This document shows positions 734 through 12,134 of a stretch of DNA of 23,286 nt, in pieces. The position numbers and the translations under genes are program-made. Source of the DNA: a virus. Position 1 is the first letter of the stretch; every line of letters starts with the position of its first letter. The stretch lies in IMG/VR virus record IMGVR_UViG_3300014502_000034, positions 1 through 23,286 of that record. The stretch is one strand, 5' to 3'. The notes beneath the pieces are model-generated. The model did no database searches, was not told the origin of the DNA, and saw nothing but the letters and a program-made list of their open reading frames with translations.

Positions 734-874
734 ATGACCGAAGAACAACAAGATTACGAAAAGAACGGATTCTGTGAAGCGCCAACAGCAGAACAATGTA
801 TCAACTTTGAACCGGTTCACGATCTGCATGATGCCTGTAAATACTGCGGATTAGGGTGTACGTGCGAAGCATAA
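734..874 (+). CDS. Small cysteine-rich protein (46 aa)
   Basis: The ATG at 734 abuts the stop codon of the XRE gene (TAAATG), so translation is probably coupled. The product is 46 residues, acidic, with six Cys and two His: Cys14, Cys22, His29, His32 and a C-terminal cluster C35-x2-C38-x3-C42-x-C44. This spacing suggests a small metal-binding (zinc) fold. I do not recognise the family. Its stop codon lies inside the first arm of the attC-like hairpin at 867-934, the position a cassette recombination site usually takes relative to its gene. Confidence 0.6.
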   Translation: MTEEQQDYEKNGFCEAPTAEQCINFEPVHDLHDACKYCGLGCTCEA

Positions 875-934
875 CGCAGACATCAGCGTGAGCGAGCAAC
901 GCGAGCGAGTCGGCTGCATGTATTTGTTATGCTT
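867..934. other. attC-like recombination-site hairpin 1
   Basis: The outer arms AAGCATAAC (867-875) and GTTATGCTT (926-934) are perfect inverted repeats. After unpaired 5-nt spacers (876-880, 921-925), the inner arms CATCAGC (881-887) and GCTGCATG (913-920) pair over 7 bp with one extra base, C917, bulged on one side. The terminal loop region holds GAGCGAG twice (890-896, 903-909). Paired R and L boxes, an unpaired central spacer and an extrahelical base are the architecture of integron attC sites. The R' box GTTATGC departs from GTTRRRY at one base. The first 26 nt from 869 match the second site (2325-2350) at 23 positions. Confidence 0.45.
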
Positions 935-949
935 TTTTATTGAGGTAAT

Positions 950-1612
950 ATGGTTGAACTTTTAAACATAGATTGCATGGAATACATGAAAACATTGCCG
1001 GACAAGGCGTTTGATCTGGCTGTGGTTGACCCGCCGTATGGGATTGGACATTTCACGCAATCCGACAGATTGAGTAAGTATGGTAATTACGATTGGAATA
1101 AAAACACACCTAATCAAGAGTATTTTATTGAATTGAAGAGAGTTTCTAAAGAGCGAATTATATGGGGAGCAAATTATTACAACTGTTTTGAAAATGGAAA
1201 AGGTGCGCTTGTTTGGTATAAGGGCAATCAGACGCAAACCATATCTCATTGTGAGATTGCAAGTTTATCGTTTCAAACAAGAGTAAGTTATGTTCATATA
1301 AATTGGCAATCTGGATTTTTTAGAGAAATGAGAGAAGGTAAGGCAATACACCCCTGCCAGAAACCGATAACCCTTTACGACTGGATTTTAAGGAACTACG
1401 CAAAACCCGGACAGCGCATTTTAGACACGCACTTAGGCTCAATGAGTTCTGTTATAGCTGCCATTGCTGGAGGTTTTTCAATAGTAGGTTGTGAAATTGA
1501 TAGTGATTATTTTATAGCAGGTTGCAATAGGGTTAAAAAATATCTAAGCCAAAGTGATTTTACGCGGGGAGAGGTTGAATTAAAAATAAATAATGATACA
1601 CAAACGTATTGA
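950..1612 (+). CDS. DNA adenine/cytosine-N4 methyltransferase
   Basis: A 220-residue protein of the N6/N4 amino-methyltransferase family, which transfers a methyl group from S-adenosylmethionine to a base amino group in DNA. The catalytic DPPY motif (motif IV) is at residues 27-30. The SAM-binding motif I follows near the C-terminus (ILDTHLGSMSS, where relatives usually have GSGSS), preceded by a HPCQKP segment. Order IV before I is that of the beta class. There is no separate target recognition domain, so it is a small solitary phage-type enzyme. An SD-like GAGGT sits before the ATG at 950. It may protect phage DNA from host restriction. With the HNH gene downstream it is bracketed by two attC-like hairpins. 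The target sequence cannot be read from the gene. Confidence 0.88.
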   Translation: MVELLNIDCMEYMKTLPDKAFDLAVVDPPYGIGHFTQSDRLSKYGNYDWNKNTPNQEYFIELKRVSKERIIWGANYYNCFENGKGALVWYKGNQTQTISHCEIASLSFQTRVSYVHINWQSGFFREMREGKAIHPCQKPITLYDWILRNYAKPGQRILDTHLGSMSSVIAAIAGGFSIVGCEIDSDYFIAGCNRVKKYLSQSDFTRGEVELKINNDTQTY

Positions 1613-1637
1613 CAAAATATTAGATAACCATTATATT
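1609..1637 (+). promoter_or_regulatory. Strong sigma70-type promoter for the HNH gene
   Basis: A perfect -35 TTGACA (1609-1614) is separated by exactly 17 bp from TATATT (1632-1637, 5 of 6). The start site would be near 1644, 21 nt before the ATG at 1665. The -35 overlaps the methyltransferase stop codon. This is the best consensus promoter I found in the window. Confidence 0.65.
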
Positions 1638-1653
1638 ATATAAAAATAATGGT
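1627..1653. promoter_or_regulatory. Operator-like inverted repeat over the HNH promoter
   Basis: ACCATTAT (1627-1634) and ATAATGGT (1646-1653) are perfect 8-bp inverted repeats centred at 1640, covering the -10 and the predicted start site. The layout is that of a repressor operator. In RNA only the right arm would be transcribed, so a transcript hairpin is unlikely. The binding protein is unknown. Confidence 0.4.
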
Positions 1654-1664
1654 GGTGCAATATT

Positions 1665-2273
1665 ATGAAAAAGGGACAGAAAAAAGGCGAAGCATTGAAT
1701 CTTATTGGAAATATATATGGAAAGCTAACAGTGATAAGATTACTCGGAAGAAATGAAAGAAAAAGATATGTTTGGGCTTGTCAATGTGATTGTGGCGGAA
1801 TAAAAAATGTTCCACAAGACTTATTGCAATCAGGCAGGACAAAAAGTTGCGGTTGTCTTATCGGCCCTGCTCGGTTGGCCGCAAATAAATATCCAGACAG
1901 GGAAAAGGCATTATATAATTTACTTTATTTCTCTTTAAAGAAAAGGCATTTATCGAAGTCAAACGAAAAAATGATAAGTAAAGAAAAATTTATAACTCTA
2001 TCTCAAGAGCCGTGTTTTTATTGCGGAGACATTGCTTCTAGTGTCAGAAAAGATATGCGTAGAGATAGTAGAAAAGGAGTAGTAAAAATCAGCACTGTTT
2101 CTGAAACAAGAATAGAGTTCAACGGCATTGACAGAAAAGACAGTGGGATTGGATATATTGATGGTAACTGTGTTAGTTGCTGTAAACATTGTAATACTGC
2201 AAAGAATGTAATGTCACTAGATAAGTTTAAAGAGCATGTACTAAAAATATATGAACATTGGGCTAAACTTTAA
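1665..2273 (+). CDS. HNH homing-type endonuclease with N-terminal zinc-binding DNA-recognition domain
   Basis: A 202-residue protein. The N-terminal part (about 14-66: GKLTVIRLLGR, then CQCDCGG and KSCGCL) is the cysteine-rich domain often found at the front of phage HNH and AP2-linked endonucleases. The C-terminal part has CFYCG (about 118-122), then NGIDRKDSGIGY and GNCVSCCKHCNTAK, typical of phage HNH nucleases where the motif is NGIDR followed by a CxxCN knuckle. It probably cuts double-stranded DNA and may be a free-standing homing enzyme. It has its own consensus promoter and operator-like repeat and follows the methyltransferase by 52 bp. Pairing with a methyltransferase could also mean a restriction-like role, but no sequence feature proves it. 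Confidence 0.82.
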   Translation: MKKGQKKGEALNLIGNIYGKLTVIRLLGRNERKRYVWACQCDCGGIKNVPQDLLQSGRTKSCGCLIGPARLAANKYPDREKALYNLLYFSLKKRHLSKSNEKMISKEKFITLSQEPCFYCGDIASSVRKDMRRDSRKGVVKISTVSETRIEFNGIDRKDSGIGYIDGNCVSCCKHCNTAKNVMSLDKFKEHVLKIYEHWAKL

Positions 2274-2290
2274 CGCGGCAAGGGAACGAT

Positions 2291-2310
2291 TTGACCGGGA
2301 GACCCGGCAA
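2291..2310 (+). other. GC-rich hairpin after the HNH gene
   Basis: TTG-A-CCGGG (2291-2299) pairs with CCCGG-CAA (2303-2310) over 8 bp, with A2294 bulged and loop AGA. It lies 17 bp after the HNH stop. No U-tract follows, so an intrinsic terminator is doubtful; it could be a processing or regulatory stem. Confidence 0.35.
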
Positions 2311-2324
2311 GTTGCAATGTGGTA

Positions 2325-2380
2325 GCATAACGAAGAAATCAGCGGGAGCGCAGCGATCGGCTGGATTGCCCTTGTTGGGC
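2325..2380. other. attC-like recombination-site hairpin 2
   Basis: R'' GCATAAC (2325-2331) faces R' GTTGGGC (2374-2380), which fits the attC consensus GTTRRRY exactly; the arms pair at 5 of 7 positions plus one wobble. Spacers are GAAGA (2332-2336) and GCCCTT (2368-2373). The inner arms AATCAGC (2337-2343) and GCTGGATT (2360-2367) pair over 7 bp with an extra base, G2364, at the same place as C917 in site 1. The start is 23/26 identical to site 1. Two sites of the same design around the methyltransferase-HNH pair suggest an exchangeable cassette. No integron integrase is in the window. Confidence 0.5.
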
Positions 2381-2402
2381 AATAAAATAACGAGGTGATG
2401 CA

Positions 2403-2570
2403 GTGACCAATAGATTGAAGCATAAACCAAAATCAACCGTGTTCCATAAAAAGTGTGGTGATTGTGGTAAATTTTTAAAAAAATCATTGTGGGTTCCCCA
2501 AGATCACCCGTGGAAGAAAAAAGCAATATGCGACGAATGTTTATCAAATTACGATGGGCCGGAATATTAA
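2403..2570 (+). CDS. Small zinc-ribbon protein (55 aa, GTG start)
   Basis: GTG at 2403 follows GAGGTG (2392-2397) at usable spacing. The nearby ATG (2398) hits TGA after one codon, so GTG is the start. The basic 55-residue product has two CxxC knuckles: C19-G-D-C22 (followed by GKF) and C43-D-E-C46, a classic zinc ribbon. No other domain is present. Such proteins in phages are usually small DNA- or protein-binding accessories, and the function here is unknown. It follows attC-like site 2 directly, as a cassette-borne gene would. Confidence 0.65.
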   Translation: MTNRLKHKPKSTVFHKKCGDCGKFLKKSLWVPQDHPWKKKAICDECLSNYDGPEY

Positions 2571-2644
2571 CAGCCCAACAGAGTAATAGGCGGAATTTTA
2601 CAAAGATTAACTAATTAAAATGCTACGTTAATTTTTGAGGGAAA

Positions 2645-2851: not shown

Positions 2852-3236
2852 AGTATCAGACGACTACAATTTAAGACTATATCACGAGATAGTCGGATTC
2901 CGCGCAGATTGGCACTGCGAAATGCCTGATTGTGGGGCTATGGGCCACGATCTTAACCCACACCATGTCGAGGGCAGGGATAATAAATCAACCCGCTACG
3001 ATGCCGAATACAATGGAATATACCTTTGCTATAATCATCATTGCTTCGCACATAATAACCCCAGAGAATTTAAAAAAATACTTATCTACAATAAAGTTCG
3101 CACCCGGGAATGGTTTGAAGAGCTGACCAGAAGGGCAAATATAATTGTTAAATTTAATAACTCTTTCCGCGAAGAGTGGAAAGAAAAGCTGCTGGCGGAG
3201 TTGAAGAGGTTAGGGGCGAGGGCGTGGAGAGTATGA
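2844..3236 (+). CDS. HNH/NinG-like zinc-binding nuclease family protein
   Basis: A 130-residue protein. The core holds C25-x4-C30 (CEMPDCG), then LNPHHVEGR (His-His at about 40-41), and LCYNHH followed by HNN (about 62-71). This C-C/H-H pattern is that of small phage HNH-type zinc-binding nucleases, with the first His of HH as the likely general base and the later His residues binding metal. A charged C-terminal helix follows. It overlaps the previous gene by 8 bp and the next by 4 bp (ATGA), so it is part of a coupled operon. It could be a replication or packaging nuclease or a non-homing HNH protein; the exact role is not decided by the sequence. Confidence 0.7.
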   Translation: MSKVSDDYNLRLYHEIVGFRADWHCEMPDCGAMGHDLNPHHVEGRDNKSTRYDAEYNGIYLCYNHHCFAHNNPREFKKILIYNKVRTREWFEELTRRANIIVKFNNSFREEWKEKLLAELKRLGARAWRV

Positions 3237-3994
3237 ACGACCTGTTTACCGGCAAATCAAAAGAAGAGGTTGCGATTGAACGCATTAAGGCTTTCTGTCC
3301 GCCAGAGGGATATTGGGTTGGTATTTCCGGTGGAAAGGATTCCTCTGTAATAAACGATCTTGTAATTCGTAGTGGCGTTAAATCAGATTTTCACTTCCAT
3401 TTAACATCAATAGACCCACCGGAAGTTATTAAATTTGTTAAAAATTATATGCCCCACGTTGAAATACATCGTCCGGCCAGTACAATGTGGAAGTTGATTG
3501 TAGAAAATGGAATGCCACCGACGAGATTAATAAAATATTGTTGCCGTATTTTAAAAGAGGGTGGAGGAGAAAGTAGAACAGTTGTGACAGGTATAAGATG
3601 GGAAGAGTCATCGCGAAGAGGGAAAAGAAAGATGGTTGAGGCCTGTTTTCGTGATAACCGAAAATTTTATATTCATCCAATTATTGATTGGTCTAGCGAA
3701 GATGTTTGGCAATATATCAGATCACACAATCTTCCGTATTGTCAATTATATGATGAAGGATGGAAGCGTATCGGCTGTATTATGTGTCCCGAAAACAGAA
3801 ACAGAATAAACGAAACGAAGCGATGGCCGACATACAAACAAGCCTATATTAGGGCATTGGATAGAGCGTTAGTGGTGGCACGGGCAAAAGGGAACAAGGC
3901 AACATTTAGTAACGGTGAAGATTATTTTAACTGGTGGGTAACAAATTCCAGAACAGGCAAAACTGATCCAGACCAGACCGTAATGTTTGAATAA
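3233..3994 (+). CDS. PAPS reductase-family (PP-loop) protein
   Basis: The start at 3233 (ATGA overlap with the previous stop, GGAG upstream) is preferred over an in-frame ATG at 3176 that lies within the HNH gene. The 253-residue product has the PP-loop SGGKDS (residues 32-37) that binds the pyrophosphate of ATP or an adenylyl compound. C103-C104 (KYCC) and C182-x2-C185 (GCIMCP) supply four cysteines, as in [4Fe-4S] members of the PAPS/APS reductase and DndC-like group. Phages often carry such genes. They may act in sulfur transfer or nucleic-acid modification rather than sulfate reduction, since no partner thioredoxin or sulfate genes are nearby. The substrate is unknown. Confidence 0.85.
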   Translation: MNDLFTGKSKEEVAIERIKAFCPPEGYWVGISGGKDSSVINDLVIRSGVKSDFHFHLTSIDPPEVIKFVKNYMPHVEIHRPASTMWKLIVENGMPPTRLIKYCCRILKEGGGESRTVVTGIRWEESSRRGKRKMVEACFRDNRKFYIHPIIDWSSEDVWQYIRSHNLPYCQLYDEGWKRIGCIMCPENRNRINETKRWPTYKQAYIRALDRALVVARAKGNKATFSNGEDYFNWWVTNSRTGKTDPDQTVMFE

Positions 3995-5995: not shown

Positions 5996-7078
5996 GTGGT
6001 AGAAGCCTGTAAAATAATTAAAGAAACAATAGACGATAGATTGACAAATATCACCGGCGCAATGCATTATATGCTGCAGGGTGGGATGAGTCCAGAATCA
6101 TGTCTTGAGTCTGTGATAAAATTATACAATGCTGAAAATTTAGATTATGAATATGCTAATATTCAACAGATAGTTACATCGGCATGGGAAGAAATTCAAA
6201 AAGGAGATTTTGATAAACGGAATAGTTTCAAAGCTGATGTTTTAGATTTTATAGTTTCATCTCCTCAAGGATTAATCTCATTAAACGATTGTTATAAGTC
6301 TGTCAATGCGAAAACAAAAGATGAGATGAGGGCGGTTAGGGTTGCCATTCATCGTATTGTACAAATGGGTTTAATTGAGCCAAGGGGAAGTAAATCAGGA
6401 GTTTATCATAAGGTTGATAAAACTTCACCTATGATAGATTTTAAAAATATACCTCAAGATCAAAAAGCGATTGACTTAAAGTGGCCGTTCGGATTAGAAA
6501 AATATTGCTTCATATTGCCTAAAAATATTGTCATTATTGCCGGTTATCCAGATACCGGAAAGACAGCATTTCTTTTAAATTTTATAAAATTAAATATGGA
6601 AAAACATAAGATACATTATTTTAGCTCTGAAATGGGAGCATTAGAATTAAGAACGCGACTTGAAAAATTCCCTATTCCGTTAGACCAATGGAAATTTTTC
6701 CCTAGAGAAAGATCGTCAAATTTTTCCGATGTAATTGTCCCGAATGAAATTAATGTGATAGATTTCCTTGAGGTTCACCAGGATTTTTATATGATGGGCC
6801 AGTGGATTAAAGATATTTTTGATAAATTAAAACAAGGAATTGCTATTATAGCAATCCAGAAAGATAAAAAAGAAAAGTCAAGTCTTGGCCGCGGAGGAAT
6901 TGGGAGCCTTGAAAAACCGCGCTTGTATATTACCCTAGATAATAATCCTCATATTTTAACAATAGTTAAAGCTAAAAATTGGATTAATGATATGATAAAT
7001 CCAAATGGAATGATGAGGAAATATAAAGTTTCATCTGGTTGCCATTTCCACATGGAGGGAGAATGGGAGCACGATTAA
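5996..7078 (+). CDS. Replicative RecA/DnaB-like ATPase with primase C-terminal-like N-terminus
   Basis: A 360-residue protein. Residues about 15-68 (LTNITGAMHYMLQGGMSPE ... YANIQQIVTSAWEE) resemble the helical PriCT module that normally follows a primase domain. About 80-140 looks like a winged helix (two helices then VYHKVD). The ATPase core has Walker A GYPDTGKT (183-190), a Walker B-like INVIDFLE strand and the IAIIAIQKDKK strand typical of RepA/DnaB-like phage helicases. It probably loads on or unwinds DNA at the GAAAC repeat origin just upstream. The start is GTG at 5996 with GAGGA 12 nt upstream. No primase catalytic domain precedes it, so the N-terminus may be what remains of a longer primase-helicase. 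Confidence 0.72.
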   Translation: MVEACKIIKETIDDRLTNITGAMHYMLQGGMSPESCLESVIKLYNAENLDYEYANIQQIVTSAWEEIQKGDFDKRNSFKADVLDFIVSSPQGLISLNDCYKSVNAKTKDEMRAVRVAIHRIVQMGLIEPRGSKSGVYHKVDKTSPMIDFKNIPQDQKAIDLKWPFGLEKYCFILPKNIVIIAGYPDTGKTAFLLNFIKLNMEKHKIHYFSSEMGALELRTRLEKFPIPLDQWKFFPRERSSNFSDVIVPNEINVIDFLEVHQDFYMMGQWIKDIFDKLKQGIAIIAIQKDKKEKSSLGRGGIGSLEKPRLYITLDNNPHILTIVKAKNWINDMINPNGMMRKYKVSSGCHFHMEGEWEHD

Positions 7079-9141: not shown

Positions 9142-9600
9142 TTGAAAGCAAAGAAAAAGTCCAAAAACCAGAATAAAAAGAATAATTCAGTTGGAAAGCC
9201 GCCTTTTTTTAAATCACCCAAAGAGCTTCAAGAGAAAATAAACGAGTATTTTGATTCATGTTGGATCGATAAGGTTGTTGAGGTAACCGATAAAGAGGGA
9301 ACTTGCACATCTACAAACAGCCGTTATCAGAATTCACCTTACACTGTTGCCGGTTTAACTTTAGCACTTGGATTTTCATCGCGTCAATCACTCTTAGACT
9401 ATCAATCTAAAAAGCAATATCTGGACATTATAAAAAAAGCAAAGCTGAAAATAGAAATGAACATCGAGGAATTTCTGATTGCAGGGAAGAATGCTGCAGG
9501 TCCTATATTCTGGTTAAAGAATCATGCAGGGTACAAAGATAAACAAGAAGTTGAACATTCAGGAATTATAAATCTTGAATCCATTGTTGCCGGGGATTGA
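9142..9600 (+). CDS. Terminase small subunit (P22 gp3-like)
   Basis: A 152-residue protein starting at TTG 9142 after AGGGGTG. After a Lys/Asn-rich N-terminus, residues about 20-140 follow the phage DNA-packaging gp3 pattern: GKPPFFKSPKELQEKINEYF, then YTVAGLTLALGFSSRQSLLDY, a long helix IIKKAKLKIEMNIEEFL, and GPIFWLKNHAGYKDKQEVEHS. This subunit forms a ring, recognises the packaging site and hands DNA to the large subunit. It overlaps the large terminase by TGATG. The rare TTG start and masked binding site suggest translational restraint. The phased ATTGCC repeats upstream are a possible recognition site. Confidence 0.88.
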   Translation: MKAKKKSKNQNKKNNSVGKPPFFKSPKELQEKINEYFDSCWIDKVVEVTDKEGTCTSTNSRYQNSPYTVAGLTLALGFSSRQSLLDYQSKKQYLDIIKKAKLKIEMNIEEFLIAGKNAAGPIFWLKNHAGYKDKQEVEHSGIINLESIVAGD

Positions 9601-12134
9601 TGACCAATTTAGAAAAAGCCAGAGAAAAGATCGCAAGTTGGCGAAAATCAGCACTGAAGTTTGTCGCCGATAACTGGCCGGGTATTGTGCTGGATAAGTG
9701 GCAGCATGACGCGATTGAATCATTGCCGGGGAATAACAGAGTCGCTATGAAGGCATGTACCGGCCCCGGAAAAGCGCAACCAGTAAATATGTTGCTAAAT
9801 ACACCCGATGGTCTTCGCCGGTGGGGTGATCTCAAAGCGGGGGACAGTGTTTTTGCACCCGATGGAACTCAAACGATAATTCTACATACTTTTATGCAGG
9901 GTATTATTCCTGTTTTTCGTGTTACTTTCAATGATGGATCAGAAACAGAATGTTGCCGCGAACATCTATGGAAAGTTCGCGGACGTACCGAAAGGCGGCA
10001 CGTAAAGCAGCGTGGTGGTAAATGGAGCGATAAGAAAGAGGCTCTTGCTATCAGCCAAAGACACTGGCGAACTCCCGCTGATGGGTGGTCAGTTATAAGT
10101 TTAGAACAAATCATAACACGCAATAAATCAAACGATGGAAAAACGAGAAGGCAATTTGAAATTCCAACGCAAGCAGCCGTGATACTTCCCCGTATTGATC
10201 TAAGTTTAGATCCTTATGTTTTGGGTGCGTGGTTGGGTGATGGTTGTAGAAAAACAAGCAGCGCATCGTGGATGGACGCGGAAATCGACAATGAAGTTAT
10301 TGAAAGAGGATATACAACACGGCGCACCAATGAAGGAAAAAATATCACTATTTATGGGATTTTAAAAGAGTTGAGGGATCTGGGCTTATCAGAATTGGGC
10401 AGCCATGAACGGTTTATTCCACCTCTTTACAAGCAATCATCAATCCAACAAAGAAAGGACATTCTCGCTGGATTACTTGATACTGATGGTTATATCTCTA
10501 CAGATAATAATATTAGTTTTGATTGCACTTCCCGGAAGCTTGTGGCAGATGTGGCATGGCTTGTAAGGTCTCTAGGTGGGGTAGCGGGTAGGATAAGAGA
10601 AAAACAGGGCTCATATAAAGATAAAATAACTGGTGAAAAAATAATATGCCGTACTTGTTATCGCGTAACGTTAGCTCTACCGTTTAATCCTTTCAAGGTA
10701 GAAAGAAAATCAAAACGGTGGACTTTACCACAACAACGGTATCTAACGCGATTTATCGATAAGATTGAACAGATAAAAGATGCGGAATCTATGTGTATTC
10801 AAGTAGCCCACGAATCACAGTGTTATCTTACAAACGATTTTATATGCACTCATAACACAATGGTTCTGGCTCTTGGCGGGTGGTGGCGTTTATCATGCTT
10901 TGCGGATAAAGGCGAACATCCAAAGGGCGCGGCTCTTTCAATCACAAAAGATAATCTGTCTGATAATCTCTGGCCGGAATTGTCTAAGTGGCAATCTCAA
11001 TCAGCTTTTTTAAGTTCTGCTTTTGAGTGGCATAAAGAGCGGATACAGGCAAAAGATCATCCGGAGACATGGTTCTTATCAGCAAGGTCTTACGCAAAGG
11101 ACGCAGATGTTGATGCTATCGGCAGGGCATTATCAGGGTTGCATAGCAAATACCCGTTTATTCTCTTGGATGAAACGGGAGATATGCCGGTTGCAGTAGG
11201 TAGAGCTGCAGAGCAGATATTCACCGGTAATCCCAAAGACGCTTTAATCATGCAGGGTGGAAACCCTACGTCAACAAGTGGCCTGCTGTATCAAGTTTGC
11301 AATACGCTCAGGGGCCAGTGGAAAATAGTCACCGTCACCGCCGACCCTGATGATCCTAACCGGACAAATCGCGTATCATTGGAATACGCCAAAGAACAGA
11401 TTGAAACCCACGGCAGAGAGAATCCCTGGGTAATGGCAACAATCCTCGGTCTATTCCCGCCGCAAGGATTTAATGCTTTGCTTGGGATTGAAGAAGTCGA
11501 AGCAGCCATGAGAAGGCATTTACAGCCAGATCAATTTGAGTGGGCCGGTAAGGTTTTAGGAGTTGATGTCGCTCGTTTCGGGGATGATCGTACTGTCATA
11601 TTCCCGCGTCAAGGTCTTTTCGCCGGAATGCCTACGATTCTACGGCAGGCGCGCACTACCGACATAGCCGCTAAATGTGCCATGATTAAGAAAGAATTGG
11701 ACTCTGATGCGTTTTTTATTGACGATACGGGGCATTGGGGTCACGGGGTCATTGATAACCTTCACACAGCAAGGTACAATCCCTTGGGGGTTCAGTTCCA
11801 CGGGCCAGCTACCGACCCTCGATATCGGAATAAAAGAGCGGAAATGTGGTTTGCTATGGCCGATTGGGTGAAATCCGGTGGGCAATTACCGCCTATCCCT
11901 GAGCTTGTAGCTGAAATGACCACGCCGACATATTCATTTACCAACGGGAAAATCATCCTTGAGGACAAAGATCAGGTTAAAAAGCGATTAGGAAGATCGC
12001 CTGACTTAGCGGATGCACTGGCTTTGACCTTTGCCTTTCCGGTTGCGCCAAAACAAACCGAAAGAGAAAAGCTATTTCAGGGCAGTAATTATGTTAATGA
12101 CTATGACCCATACGCAGAAGGAGCGAGAGCATGA
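9600..12134 (+). CDS. Terminase large subunit with in-frame intein
   Basis: 844 residues from ATG 9600 (overlaps the small-subunit stop; the TTG at 9597 is less likely). Removing intein residues 59-419 leaves 483 residues, usual for a P22-type large terminase. The ATPase half has Walker A T54-G-P-G-K58 joined to T420 after splicing, and Walker B ILLDE (about 521-525). The nuclease half has RNase H-like acids in VDVARFGDD (D656), FFIDD (D708-D709) and SPDLADALAL (D802, D805). It translocates DNA into the prohead and cuts it at headful or cos sites. The intein lies between Lys and Thr of Walker A, so packaging activity depends on splicing. The last 4 bp overlap the next gene (ATGA). Confidence 0.93.
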   Translation: MTNLEKAREKIASWRKSALKFVADNWPGIVLDKWQHDAIESLPGNNRVAMKACTGPGKAQPVNMLLNTPDGLRRWGDLKAGDSVFAPDGTQTIILHTFMQGIIPVFRVTFNDGSETECCREHLWKVRGRTERRHVKQRGGKWSDKKEALAISQRHWRTPADGWSVISLEQIITRNKSNDGKTRRQFEIPTQAAVILPRIDLSLDPYVLGAWLGDGCRKTSSASWMDAEIDNEVIERGYTTRRTNEGKNITIYGILKELRDLGLSELGSHERFIPPLYKQSSIQQRKDILAGLLDTDGYISTDNNISFDCTSRKLVADVAWLVRSLGGVAGRIREKQGSYKDKITGEKIICRTCYRVTLALPFNPFKVERKSKRWTLPQQRYLTRFIDKIEQIKDAESMCIQVAHESQCYLTNDFICTHNTMVLALGGWWRLSCFADKGEHPKGAALSITKDNLSDNLWPELSKWQSQSAFLSSAFEWHKERIQAKDHPETWFLSARSYAKDADVDAIGRALSGLHSKYPFILLDETGDMPVAVGRAAEQIFTGNPKDALIMQGGNPTSTSGLLYQVCNTLRGQWKIVTVTADPDDPNRTNRVSLEYAKEQIETHGRENPWVMATILGLFPPQGFNALLGIEEVEAAMRRHLQPDQFEWAGKVLGVDVARFGDDRTVIFPRQGLFAGMPTILRQARTTDIAAKCAMIKKELDSDAFFIDDTGHWGHGVIDNLHTARYNPLGVQFHGPATDPRYRNKRAEMWFAMADWVKSGGQLPPIPELVAEMTTPTYSFTNGKIILEDKDQVKKRLGRSPDLADALALTFAFPVAPKQTEREKLFQGSNYVNDYDPYAEGARA
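9774..10856 (+). mobile_element. Class 3 intein with LAGLIDADG endonuclease in the TerL Walker A loop
   Basis: 361 codons between Lys58 and Thr420 of the host protein. The first residue is Ala (AQPVNM), with the block A context TPDGLRRWGDLKAGDSVF. Block B shows H122-L-W124, block F has C399 (SMCIQV), and the C-terminus ends DFIC-T417-H-N419 before Thr+1. Trp at B:12, Cys at F:4 and Thr at G:5 are the WCT triad of class 3 inteins, which lack an N-terminal nucleophile. The endonuclease has two LAGLIDADG motifs, VLGAWLGDG (207-215) and LAGLLDTDG (289-297), with both catalytic Asp residues kept, so homing may still be active. The target is the most conserved stretch of the terminase gene. Confidence 0.9.

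Follow-up and report, generated by a model that had tools for sequence, protein, structure and literature searches.

Inverted attC sites bound two predicted gene cassettes, one carrying a DNA methylase, in the early region of an uncultured phage

The window, that is, the whole stretch of DNA analyzed, was the 23,286-bp contig of an uncultured phage (IMG/VR virus record IMGVR_UViG_3300014502_000034). The contig encodes a large terminase, a podovirus-like head-tail connector, a major head protein and tail genes, so that the two hairpins considered here sit in a phage early region. Between them lie genes for a DNA methylase, which from its sequence is plausibly an anti-restriction gene, and an HNH endonuclease, while two short ORFs adjoin the pair (Table 1). 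Family searches gave no matches for the 46-aa ORF, probably a native gene adjoining the insertion point, and the 55-aa protein had one weak viral match only. Elsewhere on the contig, positions 1-240 at the contig end consisted of a 24-bp unit, AGAAGAGTTTCCCCGCGCTACGAC, repeated ten times in tandem with a higher-order period of 72 bp. A gene with a PAPS-reductase domain in the early region (3234-3994, PF01507 E 5e-29) had a distant DNA match in the Methanosarcina virus MetMV. The large terminase ORF (9597-12134) seems to be interrupted at the P-loop by an intein-like insert that includes a region resembling a homing endonuclease; the insert, which by eye ends ...FICTHN/T, was common to contigs L003 and L004 at 93-94% identity.

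Table 1. Positions of the genes, attC sites and predicted cassettes in the window
Feature	Position	Strand	Remarks
46-aa ORF	734..874	+	TAA stop inside outer box GCATAAC (869-875) of site 1
attC site 1	869..932	- (top strand)	attC of methylase cassette; profile 50.8, Infernal E 3.1e-6
Predicted methylase cassette	875..2330	- (attC orientation)	Matching boxes; homology ends at boxes
N6/N4 DNA methylase gene, 220 aa	950..1612	+	PF01555 E 1e-11; phrog_67 E 5e-38
HNH endonuclease gene, 202 aa	1665..2273	+	phrog_374 E 2e-18; within methylase gene 3' end
Methylase C-terminus remnant, FNAARERFDRETRQVAMW-stop	2267..2323	+	DNA match to methylase ends
attC site 2	2325..2380	- (top strand)	attC of 55-aa-gene cassette; profile 29.7
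Predicted second cassette	2331..2578	-	55-aa gene antisense to attC; unique matching boxes
55-aa ORF	2403..2570	+	No known family

On the plus strand, site 1 comprised GCATAAC (869-875), a 5-nt spacer, CATCAGC, a loop, GCTG(C917)ATG, TATTT and GTTATGC (926-932), and site 2 comprised GCATAAC (2325-2331), GAAGA, AATCAGC, a loop, GCTG(G2364)ATT, GCCCTT and GTTGGGC (2374-2380). Both had a 7-bp inner stem (L''/L') with a single extra base on the plus-strand 3' arm. The hairpin plan proposed in the sequence-only reading (GCATAAC arm, 5-nt spacer, 7-bp stem, extra C917 or G2364) agreed base by base with this anatomy, the TAA codon of the 46-aa gene was correctly placed within the first arm, and the similarity claimed for the hairpin starts (23/26) was borne out by a repeat comparison in which 24 of the first 27 nucleotides were identical (89%, repeat family D13). 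When the R''/R' boxes were compared with RYYYAAC/GTTRRRY, the GCCCAAC of site 2 was an exact fit and its GTTATGC was one base off, while each box of site 1 was one base off, as with many reference attCs. The one-base departure of GTTATGC had been remarked upon for site 1 in the earlier reading; it is real but is not a defect, GTTATGC being a common R' box of real Vibrio and Shewanella integrons in the reference set.

An attC profile was made from 21 attC sites of known integrons and phage TJE1, the sites of the latter having been shown in earlier work to recombine with IntI1 (PMC9892861). Read on the gene-sense strand, the references have their extra-helical base in the 5' arm, an AA after R'' and, usually, a GC before R'. 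The plus strand of the window was the mirror image of this arrangement and the minus strand fit it, the position of the stem with its extra-helical base being appropriate in both sites; because of this base and the AACAA/CGTTA flanks, the attC top strand was assigned to the minus strand. For site 1 the score was 50.8 on the minus strand, above the 33-47 of the 21 references, and 24.2 on the plus strand. The minus strand of site 2 scored 29.7, only modestly above the shuffled background, because its outer arms mismatch; the score rose to 35.1 when the start of its own cassette was used as the R' box. Scores of at least 40 were obtained for 16 sites in 1.78 Mb of loci, and 5.35 Mb of shuffled sequence yielded no such site. 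An Infernal covariance model was also constructed from 17 of the references, leaving out an alignment that mixed class 1 with Vibrio/Shewanella attC registers. The search with such a model, suggested in the sequence-only reading, returned site 1 as the sole match in the window (minus strand, 31.9 bits, E 3.1e-6 by a rough calibration); site 2 fell below threshold, and there were many matches in related loci. The profile and the Infernal model were used in place of a first rule-based hairpin finder that was rejected as too loose (39 shuffled vs 68 real). There was no match in an Rfam scan of the window, and exact-pattern searches for the window hairpin among viral contigs found none.

Folding of the hairpins was uninformative. 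The energy of site 1 as DNA was unremarkable (z about -1), and for site 2 the fold of lowest energy differed from the drawn hairpin because the outer arms mismatch. An interpretation as ordinary intergenic RNA stems that serve in termination, processing or mRNA stability, with no role in recombination, is very unlikely. Site 1 is intergenic and is followed by TTTTTTATT, and attC sites can be weak terminators (PMC9892861). However, no intrinsic terminator was detected by pattern search, the folding energy was not special, and a terminator would not fit the AACAA, the extra-helical base and the R boxes on one strand. Moreover, the boxes of ordinary stems would not match across genes or coincide with homology limits, as described below.

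In an integrated cassette, the start box and the R'' box of the cassette's own attC originate from the same circle, so the boxes should match across the gene and not across the hairpin. This signature was present in the window. GTTATGC (926-932) matched GCATAAC (2325-2331) at 7/7 positions across the methylase and HNH genes, and GTTGGGC (2374-2380) matched GCCCAAC (2573-2579) at 7/7 positions across the 55-aa gene. GTTATGC, GTTGGGC and GCCCAAC each occurred once on the plus strand of the window, at cassette edges. The outer arms of site 2 thus mismatch because the matching boxes bracket genes rather than the hairpin, and the signature revealed a second cassette, containing the 55-aa gene, that was absent from the sequence-only reading. 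In the viral loci, gene-flanking boxes matched 7/7 in 44 of 63 consecutive site pairs, compared with 25 of 126 for the two boxes of one hairpin. The rule is symmetric and is therefore silent on orientation by itself. Since the attC top strand is the minus strand, the crossovers are predicted at 874/875 and 2330/2331, and a sequence lacking both cassettes would have the exact junction GAAGCATAACAGAG. The methylase-HNH unit of the cassette originally proposed was retained, but its edges at 926/927 and 2374/2375 were not. The assumption in annotation that cassette genes run in the attC sense displaces the deduced cassette boundaries by tens of bases.

Methylase relatives were gathered from viral contigs and bacterial genomes, and relatives of the cassette turned up in two bacterial MAGs as well as in unrelated phage contigs. 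The comparison showed that homology ended at or near the boxes. In a Bacteroidota MAG (L178), DNA similarity (83% over 113 nt) started at base 1 of GTTATGC, while in L128, L074, L073, L090 and L077 it started no more than 15 nt from the GTTATGC edge. At the other edge, similarity to L128 and to L234, from a Syntrophaceae MAG, ended at the final base of GCATAAC, so that L178, L128 and L234 were each exact at one edge. The hairpins flanking related methylase cassettes differed. No more than about one in ten of the methylase loci had a bracketing attC, and many phages have the methylase without an attC. With the covariance-model match of site 1, the box matching and these breakpoints in support, the identification of the window hairpins as integron-type attC sites is supported, most directly for site 1.

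The 54 bases preceding site 2 form the terminal part of a methylase gene, with 93% DNA identity to L074 and matches also to L128, L126 and L234. Because this remnant stands downstream of the HNH gene, the HNH gene must have been inserted into, or have replaced, the 3' end of the methylase gene. The two genes do share one cassette, as had been proposed, but the HNH gene was not the original partner. A possible empty site was seen in L008, whose terminase is 85% identical to that of the window phage. There, an HTH gene almost directly precedes a 68-aa gene (76% identical), and L008 lacks the 46-aa gene as well as both cassettes and the 55-aa gene. The arrangement agrees with cassette insertion but is only suggestive because the junction alignment was weak (24 of 500 shuffles were as good). 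L003, the closest terminase relative (93%), provides no test of cassette presence because it ends 510 bp upstream of terL. In L138, attC-like sites with near-repeated arms of the GATTAAAGAA type occurred on both strands, and in L136 a 35-bp stretch, GTATTATGCCTTATTCTCGGAGATAATTAAATG, was repeated before and after the methylase gene; these repeats are possibly other exchange units.

Comparable arrays were present in other viral contigs. In L069, which reads as a phage from its terminase-like, SSB-like and exonuclease-like ORFs, there was one attC between each short gene and the next. A 72-aa gene occurred there twice in inverted orientation (117-394 and 6653-6930, 95% over 278 bp), and the homology of the duplicate stopped in the flanking attC hairpins. 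Long antisense attC arrays with boxes matching across genes were found in viral contigs L334, L384, L386, L389 and L356, the first of which also has ORFs reading as phage early genes.

The attC top strand in the window is antisense to the methylase, HNH and 55-aa genes. Bacterial cassette genes are predominantly, although not always, in the attC sense. The reference integron group comprised TJE1, a class 1 array and loci that contain or adjoin an integrase; there, 41 of 45 neighboring genes had the attC sense, while in the viral methylase loci 34 of 37 neighboring genes ran against the attC. A further set of viral loci was fetched independently by attC sequence pattern; these are a sample, and part of the records labeled viral were taken without a check for phage genes. 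Among the matches listed, 55 of their 80 genes were antisense. The ratio of sense to antisense for ORFs with a stop in the terminal box was 10:2 in the references, 0:17 in the viral methylase loci and, among the matches listed, 9:39 in the pattern loci. Fisher tests gave p values of 6e-5 to 4e-15, with sites within one array not being independent. Some reference sites used in these counts had also trained the profile, and the ORF caller and model were the same for all groups. Counted by locus, the methylase set had 8 antisense, 1 sense and 2 ties, the pattern set 21, 5 and 5, and the combined viral loci 29, 6 and 7, the last two among the matches listed. The canonical sense orientation was observed in viral loci L344 and L354 and in the cultured phage TJE1; the published phage ctTUS972 has one attC antisense to a methylase gene. 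The attC is therefore inverted relative to the genes in most of the viral arrays examined.

A search for integrase genes in the rest of this genome had been proposed as a check, and its result was negative: no tyrosine recombinase or Phage_integrase match was present in the 23-kb contig, which is possibly incomplete. In the 18 viral array contigs tested, no match to the integron integrase family passed its cut-off, while two bacterial MAGs with such loci did have this integrase. Since the window contig and the viral array contigs lack an integron integrase, we infer that the cassettes were moved by that of a host acting in trans. It is probable that the early region contains two phage cassettes (875-2330 and 2331-2578), bounded by attC sites and moved by host IntI. 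The host enzyme would recombine attC bottom strands that fold in phage DNA during entry or replication. With an inverted attC, the coding strand would be the recombinogenic bottom strand and, if the genes point in the direction of fork movement, this strand would be the lagging-strand template. In Vibrio, excision is strongly raised when attC bottom strands serve as template for the lagging strand (PMC11023631), so that phage cassettes placed in this way may be excised more strongly and swap more easily. Five of six phage attC sites tested with IntI1 recombined (PMC9892861). The methylase would shield phage DNA from host restriction, and the HNH gene would have interrupted the methylase cassette at a later stage.

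Two other origins were considered. The sites could be fossil attCs that arrived on pieces of bacterial cassettes by illegitimate or homologous recombination and are now shuffled by homology or by HNH homing. The viral contigs without an integrase, the HNH gene inside the methylase and similar AACGNNGNNATCAGCG stretches that could act as short homologies are all in keeping with this origin, which we nevertheless consider unlikely for several reasons: 1) breakpoints lie at or near R boxes in several unrelated phages, 2) neighboring hairpins differ internally, 3) box matching across genes requires integrase-type crossovers or descent from such, and 4) random bacterial pieces would not be expected to give a consistent inversion. 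Alternatively, a different recombinase, phage-coded or Xer-like, could act on attC-like hairpins, the inversion then marking a separate, non-integron system. The consistent inversion does depart from integrons and the viral contigs do lack IntI, but the one-strand fit to the bacterial attC model is detailed and the gene orientation alone differs, the window has no Phage_integrase match, and a related inverted cassette (L234) resides in a MAG, G029, that carries integron integrases. This explanation is highly improbable, and mobilization by a host integron integrase is preferred.

Integron-like cassettes in a phage early region had been expected to be unusual. The setting was correct but the rarity was overestimated, as phage attC arrays, some with methylases, are already known. 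The phage CALINs of TJE1, P12002L, PH101 and ctTUS972 (Qi et al. 2023, PMC9892861) resemble the window in being integrase-free attC arrays with DNA methylase genes. The cassettes of TJE1 and PH101 were described as co-oriented, like bacterial arrays, with divergent sites only as single cases (PMC9892861); the TJE1 attC is gene-sense, whereas that of the window is antisense. The sedentary chromosomal integrons of Vibrio and Shewanella share with the window the R and L boxes, the extra-helical base, the GTTATGC-type R' and box matching at the edges, but differ in that their array lies next to an integrase and attI and their genes point in the attC direction (41/45 in the reference set). Sites of the attI type share no general consensus sequence. 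In the inverted Vibrio cholerae integron (PMC11023631), lagging-template bottom strands raise excision and the phage arrangement may do the same, although there the whole array was turned experimentally relative to replication and here the attC is turned relative to the genes, naturally. A description of systematically inverted attC sites in phages was not found in the open-access literature, the scope of the search being confined to it and excluding subscription papers and preprints; nor was one found there of a methylase cassette shared edge to edge by unrelated phage contigs and MAGs.

It is possible, although we hold this tentatively, that inverted-attC cassettes are a distinct and widespread phage form that favors exchange by host integrases during replication and lets phages shuttle counter-restriction genes. 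If the inversion is general, phage cassettes would be differently organized mobile genes and not accidental fragments of bacterial integrons. It would then be predicted that 1) the cassettes are excised at high frequency when an integron integrase is present, 2) they are captured at attI in a non-expressed orientation and 3) unrelated phages exchange anti-restriction methylases.
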